A stretch of 55,075 nt of DNA, taken from an uncultured Treponema sp. GTDB lineage: Bacteria > Spirochaetota > Spirochaetia > Treponematales > Treponemataceae. Shown piece by piece: positions 1-52,222 of this stretch. The translations under genes and the position numbers were made by a program. The notes below the pieces were generated by a model, which was given only the letters and a program-made list of their open reading frames with translations, was not told where the DNA came from and did no database searches. Location of the stretch: positions 1 through 55,075 of the forward strand of contig CAMPAL010000004.1 of assembly GCA_946631855.1 (NCBI GenBank), written 5' to 3'. The stretch's first letter is position 1. Every line of letters begins with the position of its first letter.

Positions 1-735
1 AGTTAACTTTTCTAATCTTTTTTAAAAACTTTTTTGAAATTTTAAAATATAAATAAGAACCCTGTAACTCGTGATACATTCAATTTTTTTGATTTTATTG
101 CAGCCCCAATTTCTATAGTATACATAAGGCAGATCTTATTCTCTGCCTTTTTTTAATGCAATTCTGAGCATGCCATTAAAATTTCGCTTTTTCGTTAAAA
201 TACAAAGAAATAGAATTGAATGTACAACGAGATACGTTTTCTAAACTCTTTTAAAAACTTTTTTCAAATTTTAAATATATATTTATGAACCCTTAACTCA
301 TTGTACATTCAATTCTTAGGATTTATTAAATGTATAACAGGTTGATAAAACATATGATACATTAAAACTCAGTTAAAGCCTTATAGAATAAAGAAATAAA
401 AAGGAAATGTATCACGAGTTATTTTTTCTAAAATCTTTTAAAAACCTTTTTAAAATTTTAAAAATATATTTGAAAACATCTAACATGCGATACATTTAAT
501 TTCTTATGTTTAATAAAAATCCTCTTCTCTTCTTTTTATATAATACAAATCTAAAGCTAAAAGCGTAATGTATCACATGTTTCAATAACAAGGGATACAT
601 TAAAAGTCGTCTAAATCTTTATAAAATAAAGAAAAGCAGGGAAATGTATCACGAGTTAGGTTTTCTAAACTCTTTTAAAAAGGTTTTTAAAATTTTAAAA
701 TATAAATAAAAAACCCCAATCTCGTTGTACATTTA
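1..735. repeat. Palindrome array 1: 91-nt and 35-nt inverted-repeat units
   Basis: Non-coding array. Long units begin AATGTA and end TACATT with 16-nt arms (consensus AATGTATCACGAGTTA and its reverse complement) around an AT-rich core of about 59 nt. Long units lie at 219-309, 406-496 and 643-733, each exactly 91 nt; another starts before the window and ends at 80. Short units of exactly 35 nt (15-nt arms, 5-nt centre) lie at 329-363 and 567-601. Linkers between a short unit and the next long unit are 41-42 nt and share a TTATAAAATAAAG-like core. All long units here have the core in the same orientation. A plus-strand terminator sits at 126-154. The array ends just before the helicase promoter. 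Function is unknown; protein-binding dyads (origin, partition or control) or hairpin RNA are both possible. Confidence 0.9.
126..154 (+). terminator. Rho-independent terminator inside array 1
   Basis: AAGGCAGA pairs with TCTGCCTT across an 8-nt loop and is followed by a T run. It would end transcription entering from the left of the window, between the first two long palindromic units. Confidence 0.75.
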
Positions 736-762: not shown

Positions 763-778
763 TTTCTATATTGAAATT
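763..778 (+). promoter_or_regulatory. CCTATATT-class promoter (variant) for the helicase gene
   Basis: TTTCTATATTGAAATT is a close relative of the CCTATATT motif seen before many genes in this window. It lies 24 nt upstream of the GTG at 802, with AAGGAA between as ribosome binding site. Confidence 0.5.
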
Positions 779-801: not shown

Positions 802-2142
802 GTGGAAGATACAATAGAAACTTGTTTTGAAACTCGTAATGATTTTCGAATGTTGGCGCCTTGGTCAGTAGCGAGAGGAATGCTTGCTTTAGGTGATGGA
901 ACAGAATCAGTAATAAAACAAAAAGAACATGCAGCCGCGATGATGAATTTGATTGAGAAAAATGTACCCGAAGTTACATACAATCAAACTTCAAGAAACG
1001 GAAAAACAACAAATGTAAGTGCGCCAAAATATAAGGCAATTTTTACAGATACAATGATAAAGGAAGCTGAAGCATATTATAATACTTTATCAGTTGAACG
1101 CGCCCATAAAAAGAGAATGGAAAATGTAAGGAAGTATTTTGAAACTTTTAAGCCAACTATTTCCCTTGGGGAAGCTCTTTATAGACTTTCTTTTTATTTA
1201 ATCAGTAATAAAAATAATCTCGCAAAATCAACAAATAACTTGATTTCATTTGCAAAGAAACTGCTTTTGGAACAGCCAAATAACATGTTGGTTGACTCTG
1301 CAATTATGATTGGAGGTCAGGGTAAATCGACAATACAGCAGGGCTTGATTAGTGCAGTACGCAAAATGGGAATGAGTTCTTCAATGTGTCATTTGCCGTC
1401 TGTACAGGATGGAGTTCAGGAAGCATTTGTAAGAAACGAAGTCTGCGTTGATGATGAAACGACTTTTCAGAAATTGGATATTGATTCCTTGAATAAAATT
1501 TTGGATAAATCCGATGTTACAATAAAAGGAAAATATGTAAAAGAATGGCAGGCAAAAAGTATTTCAAACGTTTTGGTTGGTACAAACTTTTTGCCAAGCG
1601 ATGTAAACACTCGCCGTTATTCAATCCGAATGGTTGATGAAAACTTTAGACTCCCTGCAAATTATGGAAGATGGACAATTCCTGGTAAAATGGGGGATGA
1701 ATTTGGAGATAGTTATGATCTCGTAAAAGAATGGGTTGAAGTGGGTTGGCTACATTTGTTTTATTATTGCAACAAATATGAAATCCCGAAGTGCGATTTT
1801 GAAGAAGTTGCATTTGATTATAACCTACAGTACAGAATTAAAAAAGCATTTGACGCAATGGATAGTCAAACACCTGTTGCATCAATTGACGAATTGATTA
1901 AATTGATGGAACAGGCCGAAGGTGATAAAATTGATTACAGGACAAAATACAGTTTGAAAGGCAAGTTGTATATTTTGGCGAATCAATTAAAATTGAATAT
2001 AACTGAAAAACATAAAAATATGTTTAGTATTTACGATTGGACCAAAGCAATGGAAATCGATGAAACTGATTTGGATGTTGACACTCTCGAAAGAGTTTAT
2101 TGTTTCTTCCACAGCGATAGATTCGAAGGATTGTGTCAATAG
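802..2142 (+). CDS. SF3-type replicative helicase (D5/NrS-1-like)
   Basis: Predicted ATP-dependent DNA helicase for phage replication, 446 aa. Seen directly: Walker A GGQGKST at residues 171-177, an acidic Walker B VCVDDE near 214-219, and a sensor stretch VLVGTNF near 257-263 followed by an arginine-rich NTRRYS segment, the order expected for superfamily 3 helicases of phage and plasmid replication proteins. The N-terminal 150 residues have no motif I can name, so a primase domain is not shown. The start is GTG at 802 with AAGGAA about 8 nt upstream; the next in-frame ATG would remove 16 residues. The gene stands directly after palindrome array 1, a suggestive place if the array is an origin. 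A terminator follows at 2155. Confidence 0.8.
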   Translation: MEDTIETCFETRNDFRMLAPWSVARGMLALGDGTESVIKQKEHAAAMMNLIEKNVPEVTYNQTSRNGKTTNVSAPKYKAIFTDTMIKEAEAYYNTLSVERAHKKRMENVRKYFETFKPTISLGEALYRLSFYLISNKNNLAKSTNNLISFAKKLLLEQPNNMLVDSAIMIGGQGKSTIQQGLISAVRKMGMSSSMCHLPSVQDGVQEAFVRNEVCVDDETTFQKLDIDSLNKILDKSDVTIKGKYVKEWQAKSISNVLVGTNFLPSDVNTRRYSIRMVDENFRLPANYGRWTIPGKMGDEFGDSYDLVKEWVEVGWLHLFYYCNKYEIPKCDFEEVAFDYNLQYRIKKAFDAMDSQTPVASIDELIKLMEQAEGDKIDYRTKYSLKGKLYILANQLKLNITEKHKNMFSIYDWTKAMEIDETDLDVDTLERVYCFFHSDRFEGLCQ

Positions 2143-34599: not shown

Positions 34600-35994
34600 A
34601 TGTCTAATACATTTAGTGAAGAATCTAAAAATCAATACAAAGCTTTTAAATTAAGATTATACCCAAATCAAGAACAGATTACTCTTATCAATAAAACTTT
34701 CGGTTGTTGCAGACAGATTTTCAACAATAGATTACAAGAAAAACAAGAATTTTACATTGACAATATTTTATCAATTCCAAAAGAAGAGCGAAAAATCAAA
34801 TCAAGAGAAATATGGAAACAATTTAAACCTTCAACAGAAAAAGAAATGAAGCAAAAGTTTCCATATATGAAAGAGGTTTCTGATAGAGCTTTACAAAGTG
34901 CGAGGCAAAACTGTGAAGCTGCTTTTTCTAACTTTTTCAAAAGTTTAAAAGGAAAGAGAAAAGGTAGAAAAATAGGTTATCCCCAATATAAATCCAAAAA
35001 AGAAACACATCAAAGTTACCAGGAAATGGCGATCTATAAAAGCAAGCATTTTAATTGGAATGCTAAAACAATTAAAATTCCAAAGTTAGGTAAGGTAAGG
35101 TTTTATGAAAAGTCTTTACCAAAATGGTGGAAAATTGTAGAAGAATTTGGTACATGCACAATTTCCAAAACTTCATCCGGAAGGTATTACATTTCTATAC
35201 TTTGTAAGCTGAAAAAAGACTGGTTTGAGGAAACTCCTAAAAATAGAAAGGATGCAATTGGTTTAGATTTTAGTCCTTCACTTTGTTATGTTGATTCAGA
35301 TAACAAAACTGGAAAAGATTTCGGGTATATGCCTCAAAAACAATCTAATCATAAAAAGTTGAGGAGATTAAGCAGAACATTTAATCGCCGTTTAAGAATA
35401 AAAGAAACAAATTCTCCGAGAAAAATCAATTCCAAAAATAAGGAAAAAGCGAGAATCAAGCTTGCCAAATTTGAGGAAAAGATTGCAAATAAAAGGAGAA
35501 ATTGGATAGAATTAGAAACAAAAAGGCTTACAACAAGTTACAACAAAGTTGTGATTGAAGACTTGAATCTGCAGGGAATGTCAAAATTCTTATGTAATGC
35601 TAAAAACATGGTAGATACAAGTTGGGGAACTTTTGTTTCTAAATTGGAATTGAAAGGAAAATCTTATGGCTGCAAAGTTATAAAAGCGGATAGGTATTTT
35701 CCAAGTTCTAAACTATGTCACGTTTGTGGTTGGAAGTATGAAGGTTTAAAACTTTCAGAAAGAAAATGGATATGTCCTTGTTGTAAAACAAAACATATCC
35801 GAGATCACAACGCTGCAATCAATTTGAAAAATTACATACCCACACAACATGGGGAATTTACGTCCACGGACTCTGAAAACAACTCCGAGACTTGCGAAGG
35901 AGTGTTAGCACTCGCTTTACAAGCATTAGAAGCAGAGAATGAAGTGGAAACAGTGATTGGTGACAACACTGAAAACAATCCTAAAAGTATTTAG
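34600..35994 (+). CDS. tnpB: TnpB, RNA-guided nuclease of an IS200/IS605-type element
   Basis: 464 aa. RuvC catalytic residues are all present: D223 (GLDFSP), E320 (VIEDLNLQGM) and D402 (RDHNAAINL). The zinc finger is CHVC (373-376) and CPCC (392-395). TnpB proteins use a guide RNA made from the right end of the element to cut DNA, which helps keep the element in place. There is no tnpA here, so this is a TnpB-only element that cannot move by itself. GAGG precedes ATG 34600. The Asn/Glu-rich tail after residue 410 overlaps the likely guide RNA region. Confidence 0.9.
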   Translation: MSNTFSEESKNQYKAFKLRLYPNQEQITLINKTFGCCRQIFNNRLQEKQEFYIDNILSIPKEERKIKSREIWKQFKPSTEKEMKQKFPYMKEVSDRALQSARQNCEAAFSNFFKSLKGKRKGRKIGYPQYKSKKETHQSYQEMAIYKSKHFNWNAKTIKIPKLGKVRFYEKSLPKWWKIVEEFGTCTISKTSSGRYYISILCKLKKDWFEETPKNRKDAIGLDFSPSLCYVDSDNKTGKDFGYMPQKQSNHKKLRRLSRTFNRRLRIKETNSPRKINSKNKEKARIKLAKFEEKIANKRRNWIELETKRLTTSYNKVVIEDLNLQGMSKFLCNAKNMVDTSWGTFVSKLELKGKSYGCKVIKADRYFPSSKLCHVCGWKYEGLKLSERKWICPCCKTKHIRDHNAAINLKNYIPTQHGEFTSTDSENNSETCEGVLALALQALEAENEVETVIGDNTENNPKSI

Positions 35995-38312: not shown

Positions 38313-39992
38313 TTACACTGAAAATCCAATATGTTTTGAATCTTCTTTTATCAATCTTTCTTTTTTACAGAAATCAAGAATTGTTTCAATTGAAGGTTGT
38401 GTTCCATAAAGCACTTCATCCAAAGTGATTTTACGGCGAATGTTTTCAATTTGGCCTCCGCTGAAATCATATTTTACAACTTTTTCCAAATCTTCATCAC
38501 TCAATGTTTCCAGCTTGCTTTTCCAAATTTTTTTCTTTGTTTCTTCTTTTGGATTTTCCAATTTCAATTTAAACAAAATACGCCTATCAAAAGCAGCATC
38601 CAAATTTGATTCTGCTAAGTTAGATGTCAAAATACAAATTCCGTCAAAGTTTTCAAACTCTTCAAGAATTATATTCTGCATTGCGTTTTCCATTTTGTCA
38701 ACGGATTCGTTTTTACCTCCTCCTAAAGTTGAGCGCTTTGAAATTACTCCATCTGCCTCATTGAAAAGCAAAATAGGCTTTTTCTTCTTTTTTGAATTTT
38801 TATAAGACTCAAAAATGGCTTTTGTGTTTTTTTCAGATTCCCCAACCCAGCAAGAACGTACTTCCTGAATATTTACGTGAAACAAATCTCTTCCCGTCAT
38901 TCTCGCAAGCTGCATTGCTGTTTCTGTTTTACCAGTTCCAGGGGGTCCGTACATCAAAATAATCAAGCCTTTTGGCATGTTCTTTTCTTCAAGGCGTTCT
39001 CTCATTTTGAGATACATTTTATCTTCAAGTAATCCTTTCAAACGATTTATATCCTGTTCATTTTCAGGGTTGTAAAACAAAGTCTTTTCTTTTATATCTT
39101 CGCTTTTTATTACTCCGAGTTCTTTTACTTTTGTTGCAGAAAAAAGAATTTCAGCATCTCCTTTGAAAATCTGTTCTTTCGCCCAATTTCCCCAAGAGAT
39201 TCTTATATTATCTCCCAAGTTATTTTTTTCAACTTTGAAAATATCTTTTTTTATAAAAAGAGAATCTCCTTCTTTAAAAGCTTTCATCATTTTAATAATA
39301 AAGCCAGGATCTCCTTCTCTTATATCTTCCAAACATCCTTTCAAAGAAACATCTGTTTTTCCATCTACTAAAGAACTACCCGCTCTTGCGAAAAAATTCA
39401 AAGCTTCTTGAGGGGCAAAATAAGTATCCCAATTATCTTTTTTAAAAAGAGATAAAACAGGATCATCTGAATAAAGAGAATCTACTAGTTGCGCATAATA
39501 AAAAGACTTGTCAATAAACCCTTCTTTTGCAGTTCTATAAAGAAAAGCCAAACAATCATTTTTTGTATTTGAAACAACAGGTTTGTAAGGTTTGAATTCT
39601 TTATTGTAACAAATTATTTGTTCCAATTCATCAGGAAGTTTAAAATATGTATATTTGCTGAAAGTACCTTTTACATATTTTTGATTATATCTTAGAGCAA
39701 AAAATCCTTTTGAAATCAATTCATCCATTTCAGGGAGTAATTCAGCATATTGAAAAGGTTCCAAATCCAAATAATTTTGAATTTCTTCAAATTGCCACCA
39801 ATCTGCTGTTGTATTTATTGATTGAGTTGCAAAAAATGAAAAAAGACAGGCCTGTTGCATTCCTAGATTACTCCAAGCCATTACTCTTTGTAAATGCTTA
39901 TTTGAGAGAGGAACATTTAATTTATTCCTTTTGCACATGGAATAAAAGACTTCTCTTATTTCTGCGAATATTGGTTTTTTATTTTCTTCCAT
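38313..39992 (-). CDS. AAA+ ATPase with long unique N-terminus
   Basis: 559 aa. Walker A GPPGTGKT at 349-356, Walker B LLFNEADG at 408-415 (Asn in place of the usual first Asp), then ILTSN as sensor 1 and DRRI as arginine finger. The first 330 residues are not recognised; they may bind the target. The motif CTATATTTTT begins 18 nt before ATG 39992 with no ribosome binding site. Upstream lies palindrome array 2. A remodelling or unfolding role follows from the family. Confidence 0.8.
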   Translation of the reverse strand: MEENKKPIFAEIREVFYSMCKRNKLNVPLSNKHLQRVMAWSNLGMQQACLFSFFATQSINTTADWWQFEEIQNYLDLEPFQYAELLPEMDELISKGFFALRYNQKYVKGTFSKYTYFKLPDELEQIICYNKEFKPYKPVVSNTKNDCLAFLYRTAKEGFIDKSFYYAQLVDSLYSDDPVLSLFKKDNWDTYFAPQEALNFFARAGSSLVDGKTDVSLKGCLEDIREGDPGFIIKMMKAFKEGDSLFIKKDIFKVEKNNLGDNIRISWGNWAKEQIFKGDAEILFSATKVKELGVIKSEDIKEKTLFYNPENEQDINRLKGLLEDKMYLKMRERLEEKNMPKGLIILMYGPPGTGKTETAMQLARMTGRDLFHVNIQEVRSCWVGESEKNTKAIFESYKNSKKKKKPILLFNEADGVISKRSTLGGGKNESVDKMENAMQNIILEEFENFDGICILTSNLAESNLDAAFDRRILFKLKLENPKEETKKKIWKSKLETLSDEDLEKVVKYDFSGGQIENIRRKITLDEVLYGTQPSIETILDFCKKERLIKEDSKHIGFSV

Positions 39993-40000
39993 TTGTTAGA

Positions 40001-40010
40001 AAAATATAGT
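40001..40010 (-). promoter_or_regulatory. CTATATT promoter, leaderless type
   Basis: ACTATATTTT on the minus strand before ATG 39992. Confidence 0.5.
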
Positions 40011-40050: not shown

Positions 40051-40760
40051 AAATGTACCACGAGTTAAGGGGTTTCAATTATTTATTTAAAATTTGAAAA
40101 AAGTTTTTAAAAAAGTTTTAAAAAGATAACTCGTGATACATTTACTCCTTTTCCTTGTTTTGTAATACTTTACCGCGATTTTAATGTATCATATGTTACC
40201 CTAACATGTTATACATTCGCGAAAAGAATTGAATGTATCACCTGTTATATTTTCTCGTTATACATTAAAAGCAGGGTAAATCCTTATAAAATAAAGAAAT
40301 GAGATTGAATGTATCACGAGTTAGGATTTCTAAAATCTTTTAAAAAGTTTTTTAATTTTTTAAAAATATAATTGAAAACCCTTAACTCGTTATACATTTA
40401 ACTCTTTAGTTTTACGCTTTTAGCATTATATAAAAAAGAAAAGAGAGAGTAATAATAACTTTATGATAAAAACATATGATACATTAGCAATGTACAACGA
40501 GTTAGAGTTTCTTATATTATATTTTAAAATTTTGAAAAAGTTTTTAAAAGAGTTTATAAAACTTATCTCGTTGTACATTCACTTGTTATCCCTTTATTCT
40601 ATAAAGCTTTAACGTGATTTTAATGTATCACCTGTTTTAATAACATATGATACATTCACGAAAAATTAAATGTATGACGAGTTAGAGGGTTTCTATTTAT
40701 ATTTTAAAATTTCAAAAAAGTTTTTTAAAAAGTTTAGAAAACTAACTCGTCATACATTAA
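40051..40760. repeat. Palindrome array 2: 91-nt and 35-nt inverted-repeat units
   Basis: Second copy of the array type at the window start. Long units: 40052-40142 (91 nt), 40308-40398 (91), 40489-40579 (91) and 40669-40758 (90). Short 35-nt units: 40183-40217, 40232-40266, 40622-40656, and a decayed one at 40451-40485. The core of 40308-40398 points as in array 1; the other three long units have it reversed. Linkers of 40-42 nt between long and short units share the TTATAAAATAAAG-like core. No coding potential. The array separates the AAA+ gene from the membrane operon. Confidence 0.9.
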
Positions 40761-50281: not shown

Positions 50282-52222
50282 TCAAATTAAAATCACATAC
50301 TCAAAATTTGTACCAAAGTGAGATTTATTTGTTAGAGTCTCTACAATTTTATCTTTATATTTTTCGGTTTCATCCACAACGAATAAATATCCTTTACATC
50401 CTTTATGCTTTTGTAAACACAAATCAATCCATTCATCACAGGATTTTTCAATCTCATTTTCATTCCAATGCTCTTTGCCACTATAAGGTGGACATGTAAA
50501 TAAATAAACATCTTTCAAGCAAGACCAATCTTTTTCTTTGAAAGAAATTAAATCCTGGACTCTAACCTCGCACTTACTATCTATTTTCTTATAGTGAATT
50601 ATCTCATTAGACTCTTTTACATGTTCTTCATTTATATCAAATCCCAAATATTGTTTTCCACAATTAAAAGCTCCCAACATTCTACCTGAAAAACCTGAAA
50701 AGGGGTCTACTATCAAGTCTGCTTCAAGTATATATTTTTTGATGAGTTTTTCTGCTAATTTTGGTCTAAAAACAGATACTTTTGGAGCTATCTGAGCTAT
50801 AGAAAAACCTTTCAAAATATCAGATGGTTCACATCTTCCAATATATTTCAATCTATTCAATGCAGACTCTAAAACTAAACTTTTATTTTTCCAAGCTTGA
50901 ATAGGGCTTAATTTTCCTTTTTTAGATGCAGAAAAAATAGATTTATGAAAATATCGAATCAAATCATAATCCCCTTTTGTAATCAATTCAGGGTAAGGAA
51001 ATGGTATATCTTTTTTGAAAAGAGGTAGAAAATTCTTTGTGTATTTCTTTTCTATGTAATCTATGATAGGCTTCATTTCTTCATCTTTCCAAAAAATTAC
51101 ATTATTTTTCAAAGCTACTTGATGCTTTGCTTCAAATAAATCGTTTTTGCTTTCGTCAAAAGGATTTATCATTTTTCCATTTCTGAAAAATTGACCTCCT
51201 TTTATTTCAATCAATTTTCCATTTATTTCAAAATCTGGAAAATATGAATGTATTTTTCCTTCAAATTCATACTCAATTTCTACAGGTTCTCTTTTGATTT
51301 CAAAATTATTTTCTTTTGCCCAAATCCAAACGGCGAGTTCCCAACTTGAATCAAAATACTCATTTTGAAAAATATATTTATGAACAGGTGGATGAGCAAT
51401 TCCATACTTTTCAAGAAGAGTTTTTTTTGCTTTTTCTGTATTTCTATAGGTTTCTTTTCCATATCTTTCTTTCAAAGTATTTTTTATCTTTTCTTGCATT
51501 TCTTTAGTTCTTATGGGAAATTCATCCCCGTATTTTTCAATACAGGTTTTTGATCTTTTCTTTTTGAATTCTTCTGTTTGAAAAACGTTTTCTTTTTCAA
51601 AATTCTTCAAAAAAGTGTTTCTAGCTTTCTCTTTAAAAACTTGAGATTGTAGCGCAAAATCAACTCCATAAAGACCTCTCATAGTAGATTTTCGTTTTTC
51701 CTTTATCTTTTCTTTTTCTTCTTTACTTTTAGAAACAAAAGTATTTACTTGTTTTTGGTGAATTTCTTTCTTTTGAGCAACTGCTTCAACTCCGTATTTT
51801 TCTTTACAAGTATTTTTTCTTTTTTGATTTGACTTTTCAATTTCTTCGTTTGTTTTCTCATTCCAAGCTTTTTTAATTTTTTCTTTTACAGAAAGAGATT
51901 GAGCTGGTGTTTTAGAACCGAATTTTTCAATATTTGTTCTTTCTCTTTCACAATTATGGCAAGTCGAAAAATCCTTAAAATTCAAAAAACTTTTCAATAA
52001 AATTTCCCTTCCACAGCTTAAACATATATATTTTATAGATTGTTTTCTTTTCAATGTTTTAGGGAGATTTTCAACATTTTTTAAATTATCCTCGTTTAAT
52101 TCTATTGGTTCTTCACTTGCGCAATTTGCAGGGTTTTTAATACAACACTTTTCATGTCTTTTAATAAGGCGGTCTCTCATTTCTTTCCCGCAATATTTAC
52201 ACTTTGTATATTTTAATTCCAT
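50282..52222 (-). CDS. Zinc-finger, YG-repeat, PD-(D/E)XK nuclease and DNA methyltransferase fusion
   Basis: 646 aa, four parts. (1) Zinc fingers: C8/C11 with H23/C26, and C67/C70 with C88/C91. (2) Residues about 95-280: repeats ending in YG or FG (FG101, YG144, YG186, YG232, YG255, YG274), each after a basic KR--T helix, as in DNA-binding repeats of phage homing-type enzymes. (3) Nuclease: E295, PD (329-330), EIKG (339-342). (4) Methyltransferase: motif I DPFSGFSG (506-513) and catalytic CPPY (577-580). It could cut unmodified competitor DNA while marking its own. AAGG precedes ATG 52222, inside a hairpin arm. It lies between the tube and sheath genes, as an inserted selfish gene would. Confidence 0.7.
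   Translation of the reverse strand: MELKYTKCKYCGKEMRDRLIKRHEKCCIKNPANCASEEPIELNEDNLKNVENLPKTLKRKQSIKYICLSCGREILLKSFLNFKDFSTCHNCERERTNIEKFGSKTPAQSLSVKEKIKKAWNEKTNEEIEKSNQKRKNTCKEKYGVEAVAQKKEIHQKQVNTFVSKSKEEKEKIKEKRKSTMRGLYGVDFALQSQVFKEKARNTFLKNFEKENVFQTEEFKKKRSKTCIEKYGDEFPIRTKEMQEKIKNTLKERYGKETYRNTEKAKKTLLEKYGIAHPPVHKYIFQNEYFDSSWELAVWIWAKENNFEIKREPVEIEYEFEGKIHSYFPDFEINGKLIEIKGGQFFRNGKMINPFDESKNDLFEAKHQVALKNNVIFWKDEEMKPIIDYIEKKYTKNFLPLFKKDIPFPYPELITKGDYDLIRYFHKSIFSASKKGKLSPIQAWKNKSLVLESALNRLKYIGRCEPSDILKGFSIAQIAPKVSVFRPKLAEKLIKKYILEADLIVDPFSGFSGRMLGAFNCGKQYLGFDINEEHVKESNEIIHYKKIDSKCEVRVQDLISFKEKDWSCLKDVYLFTCPPYSGKEHWNENEIEKSCDEWIDLCLQKHKGCKGYLFVVDETEKYKDKIVETLTNKSHFGTNFEYVILI

Follow-up and report, generated by a model that had tools for sequence, protein, structure and literature searches.

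In bacteriophage T4, at least five origins are active early on the 169-kb genome, and three of them lie near transcriptional divergences and shifts in skew (PMC3016281). The minimal T4 origins, about 100 bp long, combine a middle promoter (activator site at -30, -10 box) with an AT-rich unwinding element downstream; they share no common motif, and their R-loop unwinding elements need no specific sequence (PMC3016281). Repeated intergenic elements are also described in other phages. The promoter early stem-loops of T4-like phages (PeSLs; Arbiol 2010, Comeau 2014, cited in PMC4503421) are described as repeated cassettes of a promoter and a palindrome in intergenic regions. Stoperators are asymmetric 13-bp sites that are mostly not promoter associated and follow the direction of transcription (PMC6550527). 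In phages of several hundred kilobases, the start and coordination of replication are largely unknown.

At parS of P1, ParB boxes are placed on both sides of a bent centre. Here, we describe arrays of two palindromic units, which were analysed following an earlier note on one stretch of DNA (the window, 55,075 nt), corresponding to contig C4 of a 217-contig metagenome-assembled genome (MAG) of an uncultured Treponema sp.

Palindromic units and the composite module

The arrays contain a long unit, L, and a short unit, S, which are pairs of inverted half-sites. L reads AATGTAynACGAGTTA + 59-nt core + TAACTCGTkrTACATT, with half-site centres 75 bp apart, and holds about 117 bits of information, about 65 of them in the core, which is directional. 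All of the 47 copies compared were distinct, and 45 of the 91 columns were near invariant. A half-site matrix was applied to all contigs examined, and the span count took in all +/- half-site pairs 25-130 nt apart. The obtained spans were 91 nt for 47 pairs (plus five at 90 nt and one at 92 nt) and 35 nt for 33 pairs (plus four at 34 nt and one at 36 nt); other spans were few and accidental. In the window, the short form gave 10 matches, which are five sites read on both strands, against a chance expectation of 0.07.

The two units are joined in a fixed order. S was located 41 or 42 nt before L, always on the same side, in 37 of the 53 long units, and the distance on the other side of L was variable (7 to 36 nt). 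The linker between them carries the fixed-place elements AAAA, TAA and TTATA(R)(W)A(Y)AA(R)G. The distance from the edge of S to TTATA was 17 nt in 42 of 43 modules, and 19 or 20 nt separated TTATA from L. A constant distance on the S side, accompanied by a tolerance of one nucleotide on the L side, is as expected if S positions the polymerase. The fixed S-linker-L layout therefore makes the directional composite of 167 or 168 nt the real unit. The features of the two arrays of the window are listed in Table 1.

Table 1. Arrays A and B of the window, their units and their flanking elements (positions in the window)
Feature	Position	Strand	Remark
Array A	1..735	.	upstream of DUF5906 gene at 802
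Truncated 91-nt unit L, first bases missing at contig start	1..80	+	core and right arm match L consensus
Promoter-like CTATAGTAT, then terminator-like hairpin (AAGGCAGA..TCTGCCTT plus T run)	111..154	+	within array A
91-nt palindromic unit L	219..309	+	
35-nt palindromic unit S	329..363	.	
42-nt linker	364..405	+	-10-like TTATAGAATAAAG 17 nt from S
91-nt unit L	406..496	+	completes S-linker-L module 329-496
Inter-module spacer	497..566	+	array-specific element TATATAATACAAATC
35-nt unit S	567..601	.	
41-nt linker	602..642	+	-10-like TTATAAAATAAAG
91-nt unit L	643..733	+	completes module 567-733
CTATATT, general promoter-like box of flanking gene	766..772	+	32 nt outside last palindrome
Flanking gene, DUF5906 helicase/primase-like	802..2142	+	E 6e-6, just under curated cut-off
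CTATATT promoter-like box of left flanking AAA gene	40003..40009	-	gene at 38313-39992
Array B	40052..40758	.	
91-nt unit L	40052..40142	-	
40-nt linker	40143..40182	-	
35-nt unit S	40183..40217	.	
35-nt unit S	40232..40266	.	
41-nt linker	40267..40307	+	
91-nt unit L	40308..40398	+	
Spacer	40399..40488	.	diverged array-specific AT element and degenerate S (right half 40470-40485)
91-nt unit L	40489..40579	-	
42-nt linker	40580..40621	-	
35-nt unit S	40622..40656	.	
90-nt unit L	40669..40758	-	

The spacers add an array-specific TTTGTATTATATAAA-type element (12 of the 13 copies of TTTGTATTATAT are located in arrays) and promoter/terminator cassettes. Four such cassettes were identified inside arrays, and those similar to the cassette at 111..154 occur on contigs C1, C2 and C13. 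The array-specific boxes (TATAGAATA, TATAATACA and TATAAAATAAAG) were found in none of 199 other gene-upstream regions. They differ from a general promoter-like box, CCCTATATTATAA, which is present genome-wide in the phage about 30 nt before start codons and is probably a phage-specific promoter class. At the genes flanking the arrays, a CTATATT box was present in 15 of 19 cases and mostly lay 31-44 nt beyond the outermost palindrome. A solitary 90-nt L, without S or an array, was observed at L007:33-122 (C1:40033-40122), and a CTATATT promoter box directly follows it.

Distribution of the arrays along a phage replicon

Genome-wide, 14 arrays and one solitary long unit were identified on nine contigs (C1, C2, C4, C7, C13, C16, C19, C24 and C32), and none on any other contig of the MAG. 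The arrays are 0.2-1.2 kb in size and hold up to six L units each. The nine contigs sum to 367 kb at 31-33% GC, are set apart from the other contigs examined by their tetranucleotides, and are one jumbo-phage replicon; C57, a 15-kb contig without an array, may belong to it too. The start of C4 and the end of C7 both fall inside an array, as expected because repeats break assemblies. By gene content, the replicon resembles a jumbo T4-like phage. Mechanical ORF calls on its contigs gave T4-type topoisomerase II subunits, a Dda-like helicase and clamp-loader genes, all on array contigs, structural matches to a gp6-like baseplate protein (weak), a T4 portal (weak) and a tail collar fibre, as well as GroEL, DNA polymerase A, dUTPase, and NAD and queuosine genes. 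No terminase was detected on the array contigs, and the terminase models matched a host-like contig only. The nearest named relatives are remote, with a topoisomerase identity of about 26-28%, and co-binning with the Treponema MAG does not prove the host. The phage (~367 kb) makes up 14% of this species-representative MAG, at a GC content of 32% versus roughly 36% on the host contigs; host gene content inferred from the MAG would therefore be contaminated.

Further features of the replicon were recorded. HNH homing endonucleases are numerous, and an HNH/DUF7487 homing-endonuclease-like family is expanded (window 50282-52222; L009:13890-15797; L019:7730-9502; L016:8218-9300; L008:348-1355), with up to 54% identity between its proteins across contigs; on C16, homing endonucleases adjoin NrdD fragments. 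IS605-type TnpB genes are located at window 34600-35994, L024:9823-11292 and L007:9253-10551, and the copy on C32 sits directly at the array edge, which explains the non-divergent right neighbour of the C32 array. A Tad8-like protein (type II Thoeris inhibitor, E 1e-19) is encoded on C1, C2 or C4. The phage also carries NAD salvage genes (NAPRTase, and NAD synthase at L023:12442-13086), which may also serve NAD-based counter-defence. An 1101-aa protein with BspA-type leucine-rich repeats (L018:5725-9030), adjoined by a shorter paralogue, is perhaps adhesion-related.

The placement of the arrays was regular. Contigs end in arrays, and six complete intervals were available, measuring 22.9, 17.6, 37.2, 40.0, 19.2 and 22.0 kb, and the minimum spacing of 17.6 kb was reached in none of 20,000 random intergenic placements. 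Profile searches detected no palindromic units outside the arrays and no faded arrays mid-way in the two 40-kb intervals. Thirteen arrays, including the solitary unit, had a gene on either side; eight of these junctions were divergent, versus 53 of 333 genome-wide (P 1.7e-4), and none was convergent, versus 54 of 333. Genes pointed away from the arrays in 85% of cases within 2 kb and in 51% at 7-10 kb, a polarity that was tested once the arrays were known. Third-position GC skew was 0.173 for genes directed away and 0.116 for genes directed towards them (P 0.017), which is a small and post hoc difference. The flanking genes displayed no common functional class (portal-like, clamp loader, SLT lysozyme, NAD synthase, HD).

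Units were slightly less alike within an array (similarity 0.779) than between arrays (0.792). This speaks for units that are maintained independently and against recent gene conversion or tandem duplication; a possible reason is that neighbouring units thereby avoid recombining with each other. A gene-linked mobile element was rejected, as no paralogous gene adjoins the arrays. Searches for relatives covered several collections. In IMG/VR, no relative was found by 16-mer, 91-form, 35-form or core pattern (the six records matched by 16-mer carry no array), nor by the GroEL, DUF5906 or topoisomerase proteins. By the same sequence patterns, the GTDB genomes gave two isolated look-alikes only and no array; 97 related genomes contained no arrays, and none was present in the first 100 kb of MT835476, which has a distant topoisomerase homologue. 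The topoisomerase search in the host order returned cellular gyrases only. In a Clostridia MAG from roe-deer colon, a single palindrome, AATGTATAACCAGTTATTTAATAACCGGTTATACATT (L102:4727-4763), stands a short way upstream of a regulator-like gene of 150 aa and suggests that the phage half-site may resemble a MarR-type operator.

These results extend the earlier note, whose count for the window (seven long units, six of 91 nt and one of 90 nt, and five short units, all of 35 nt) was reproduced, and whose two fixed half-site spacings hold genome-wide, where pairs occur essentially only at 35 and 91 nt. It had described the sequence between the arms as drifting at a fixed length; the length is indeed fixed, but the L core is conserved and directional. 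The two arrays 40 kb apart on which it was based are both real, but they are part of a larger set that recurs along the whole replicon, also mid-contig, so that recombination ends bounding one 40-kb segment are not supported. The helicase-like neighbour from which it argued is likewise real, although a weak match (DUF5906); it is also atypical, as the genes beside other arrays are unrelated. A genome-wide search for units scattered at random sizes, the outcome it had set against itself, did not refute it. An assembly artefact, its other reservation, is unlikely because the long units are all distinct and spread over nine contigs. The 35- and 91-nt forms that it proposed to look for elsewhere were found along the same replicon, and not as arrays in the three collections above.

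Duplex geometry and readings of the arrays

Arm covariation was detected in neither unit: the arms of L agreed no more than their columns predict (p 0.19), and the halves of S were less alike than expected (p 0.994). As no compensatory changes connect the arms of S or L, RNA hairpins, which the earlier note had offered as one option, and a structured RNA array were rejected. In the L core, purine/pyrimidine runs recurred every 10.6 bp (run-preserving P 0.004); over the full length of L, TA steps had a period of 10.1 bp (P 0.023). Both periods point to duplex DNA that is read or wrapped from one face. The helically phased core and the lack of arm covariation therefore indicate a protein-DNA geometry and not RNA hairpins. 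A geometric constraint, as the note had argued, and its other option, a putative protein bound to two half-sites at two fixed spacings, are supported. Among 59-bp windows, the L cores ranked in the least stable 0.04-5%. Of the least stable 0.5% of all windows of the replicon, 48% fall in the arrays, although these make up 3% of it. Intrinsic curvature of L was rejected, as the predicted static curvature was not above that of the genome or of shuffled cores. Module anatomy, fixed spacings, helix instability, phasing, arm independence, regular spacing and divergent placement are all computed properties.

We propose as the most likely reading, with a confidence that falls a little short of even, that the arrays are a distributed and standardised set of T4-type replication origins built from one standard module. 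The module matches the minimal T4 oriF part for part (PMC3016281), which favours distributed origins. A phage-encoded dimer would bind S. With its end lying about 31 nt ahead of the predicted start of transcription, S would serve in place of the -35 element. RNA polymerase would then start at the -10-like box past S and transcribe into L, whose 59-nt AT-rich core would serve as the DNA unwinding element, with an RNA primer or R-loop opening the helix there. The same protein, seated on the two outer half-sites of L, would hold or wrap the core and thereby gate its opening. It is from this anatomy that we infer protein binding, transcription start, unwinding and replication initiation at the arrays. 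If this is true, the half-site is recognised by a single protein although its spacing differs greatly between S and L, and the module, placed at regular intervals, provides an origin (or scaffold) defined by sequence, which is accessible to cloning, pull-down and direct testing. In T4, unwinding elements do without a specific sequence, yet the core of L carries 65 bits, which must therefore be read by something else. Against origins, gene polarity could stem from promoter activity instead, and up to six L units per array exceed the need of one origin. The search for a binding protein identified no initiator or activator for the putative origins. ParB_N was confined to C8 and C91, whose composition is host-like (small contigs are not all assigned), no HU/IHF-family protein was matched in the whole assembly, and HTH_3 was absent from the array contigs; ParB, HU and HTH_3 were rejected as the array-binding protein, as they are not on those contigs. 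The origin or partition type of site named in the earlier note would appear supported, and its interpretation as a whole partly so.

The main rival holds that the arrays are clusters of promoters and operators, that is, transcription hubs and not origins, in which a phage regulator on S and L switches divergent operons and array-internal promoters together. The constant 17-nt distance between S and the -10-like box, the CTATATT boxes at the array edges, the divergent placement and the internal promoter/terminator cassettes are all consistent with it. The flanking genes, however, carry the ordinary genome-wide phage promoter box and so do not need the array, the array-specific boxes are not shared with other gene-upstream regions, and the genes served would be of no single functional class. 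Regulation would not lead one to expect regular spacing, and the extreme instability of L also weighs against this rival, which we consider somewhat unlikely. It does not exclude the origin reading, because T4 origins are promoters. That regular spacing, together with the strict geometry, the helical phasing and the many sites per array, could instead mark centromere-like or scaffolding sites, where a protein would wrap each L (75 bp, about one superhelical turn) and cluster the arrays to partition, condense or anchor the genome. The boxes of P1 parS likewise flank a bent centre. Such sites are quite unlikely here, given that ParB_N is confined to two host-like contigs, that the assembly lacks an HU/IHF-family match, that the predicted static curvature of L is ordinary and that the -10-like linker would be left unexplained. 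A broader proposal, which we regard as unlikely, is that L could be a built-in one-turn DNA wrapping site in which the half-sites are brought together as in the 35-nt form, and that arrays every 20-40 kb would form a genome-wide protein scaffold, an element of a kind not described before, linking the spatial organisation of the jumbo phage genome to its transcription and to the start of its replication.

The many intergenic sites for one presumed protein recall dispersed repressor sites, stoperator-like or P1-like, that would silence the phage in a dormant state; stoperators are a known precedent (PMC6550527), and the isolated look-alike palindrome of L102 stands just upstream of a small regulator-like gene. 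This is nevertheless very improbable, as stoperators are asymmetric, 13 bp long and aligned with transcription (PMC6550527) and the phage sites are palindromic pairs in 0.2-1.2-kb arrays, as HTH_3 was not found on the array contigs and as the AT-rich core would have no explanation. It is scarcely credible that the units are mobile or selfish repeats of the MITE/REP type which spread and then decayed. Short repeats in arrays and the IS605-family TnpB genes of the phage would suit such an origin, but the long units are all distinct with nearly half of their columns near invariant, similarity is no higher within arrays than between them, no gene accompanies them, no decayed copies lie outside the arrays, and the spacing is regular.

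Comparison with known systems

The arrays share individual traits with several described systems. Like iteron origins (the T4 oriE repeats and plasmid iterons), they combine clustered, repeated protein-binding sites with adjacent AT-rich DNA; iterons, however, are direct repeats at a constant period, whereas the phage half-sites are inverted pairs that span either 35 or 91 nt and the spacing of the modules is variable. The four promoter/terminator cassettes inside the arrays resemble PeSLs. PeSL palindromes are reported as stem-loops in scattered cassettes, whereas the phage palindromes are not hairpin-like and stand in arrays; with no arm covariation in either S or L, the promoter is not flanked by RNA stem-loops. 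The stoperators of Cluster A mycobacteriophages are similar in being many sites for one phage protein dispersed genome-wide. They are single asymmetric 13-bp sites aligned with transcription, in contrast to the palindromic composite modules of the phage, which form arrays at divergent junctions. In P1 parS/ParB, binding boxes likewise flank a central DNA-deforming segment, but P1 has one or two loci and a ParB, whereas the phage has 14 loci and no ParB encoded on its contigs. The units are also not the recently related, decayed and scattered copies of MITE/REP elements.

Read as distributed origins, the arrays are comparable to T4 oriF/ori(uvsY) and oriG, with several origins per genome and an AT-rich unwinding element behind a promoter that depends on an activator, and the phage has a T4-like topoisomerase II. 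As in oriF, a -10 box is accompanied by a putative activator site near -30 (S, at its constant distance from TTATA), a predicted A+T-rich unwinding element lies downstream of the promoter (the unstable L core), and the arrays are located near transcriptional divergences with a shift in skew, which is modest. T4 oriF and oriG are single small elements, whereas the phage has a 167-nt palindromic module, repeated ~50 times in 14 arrays, with a sequence-specific core. As T4 origins have no common motif, such a standard module would be a departure from them.
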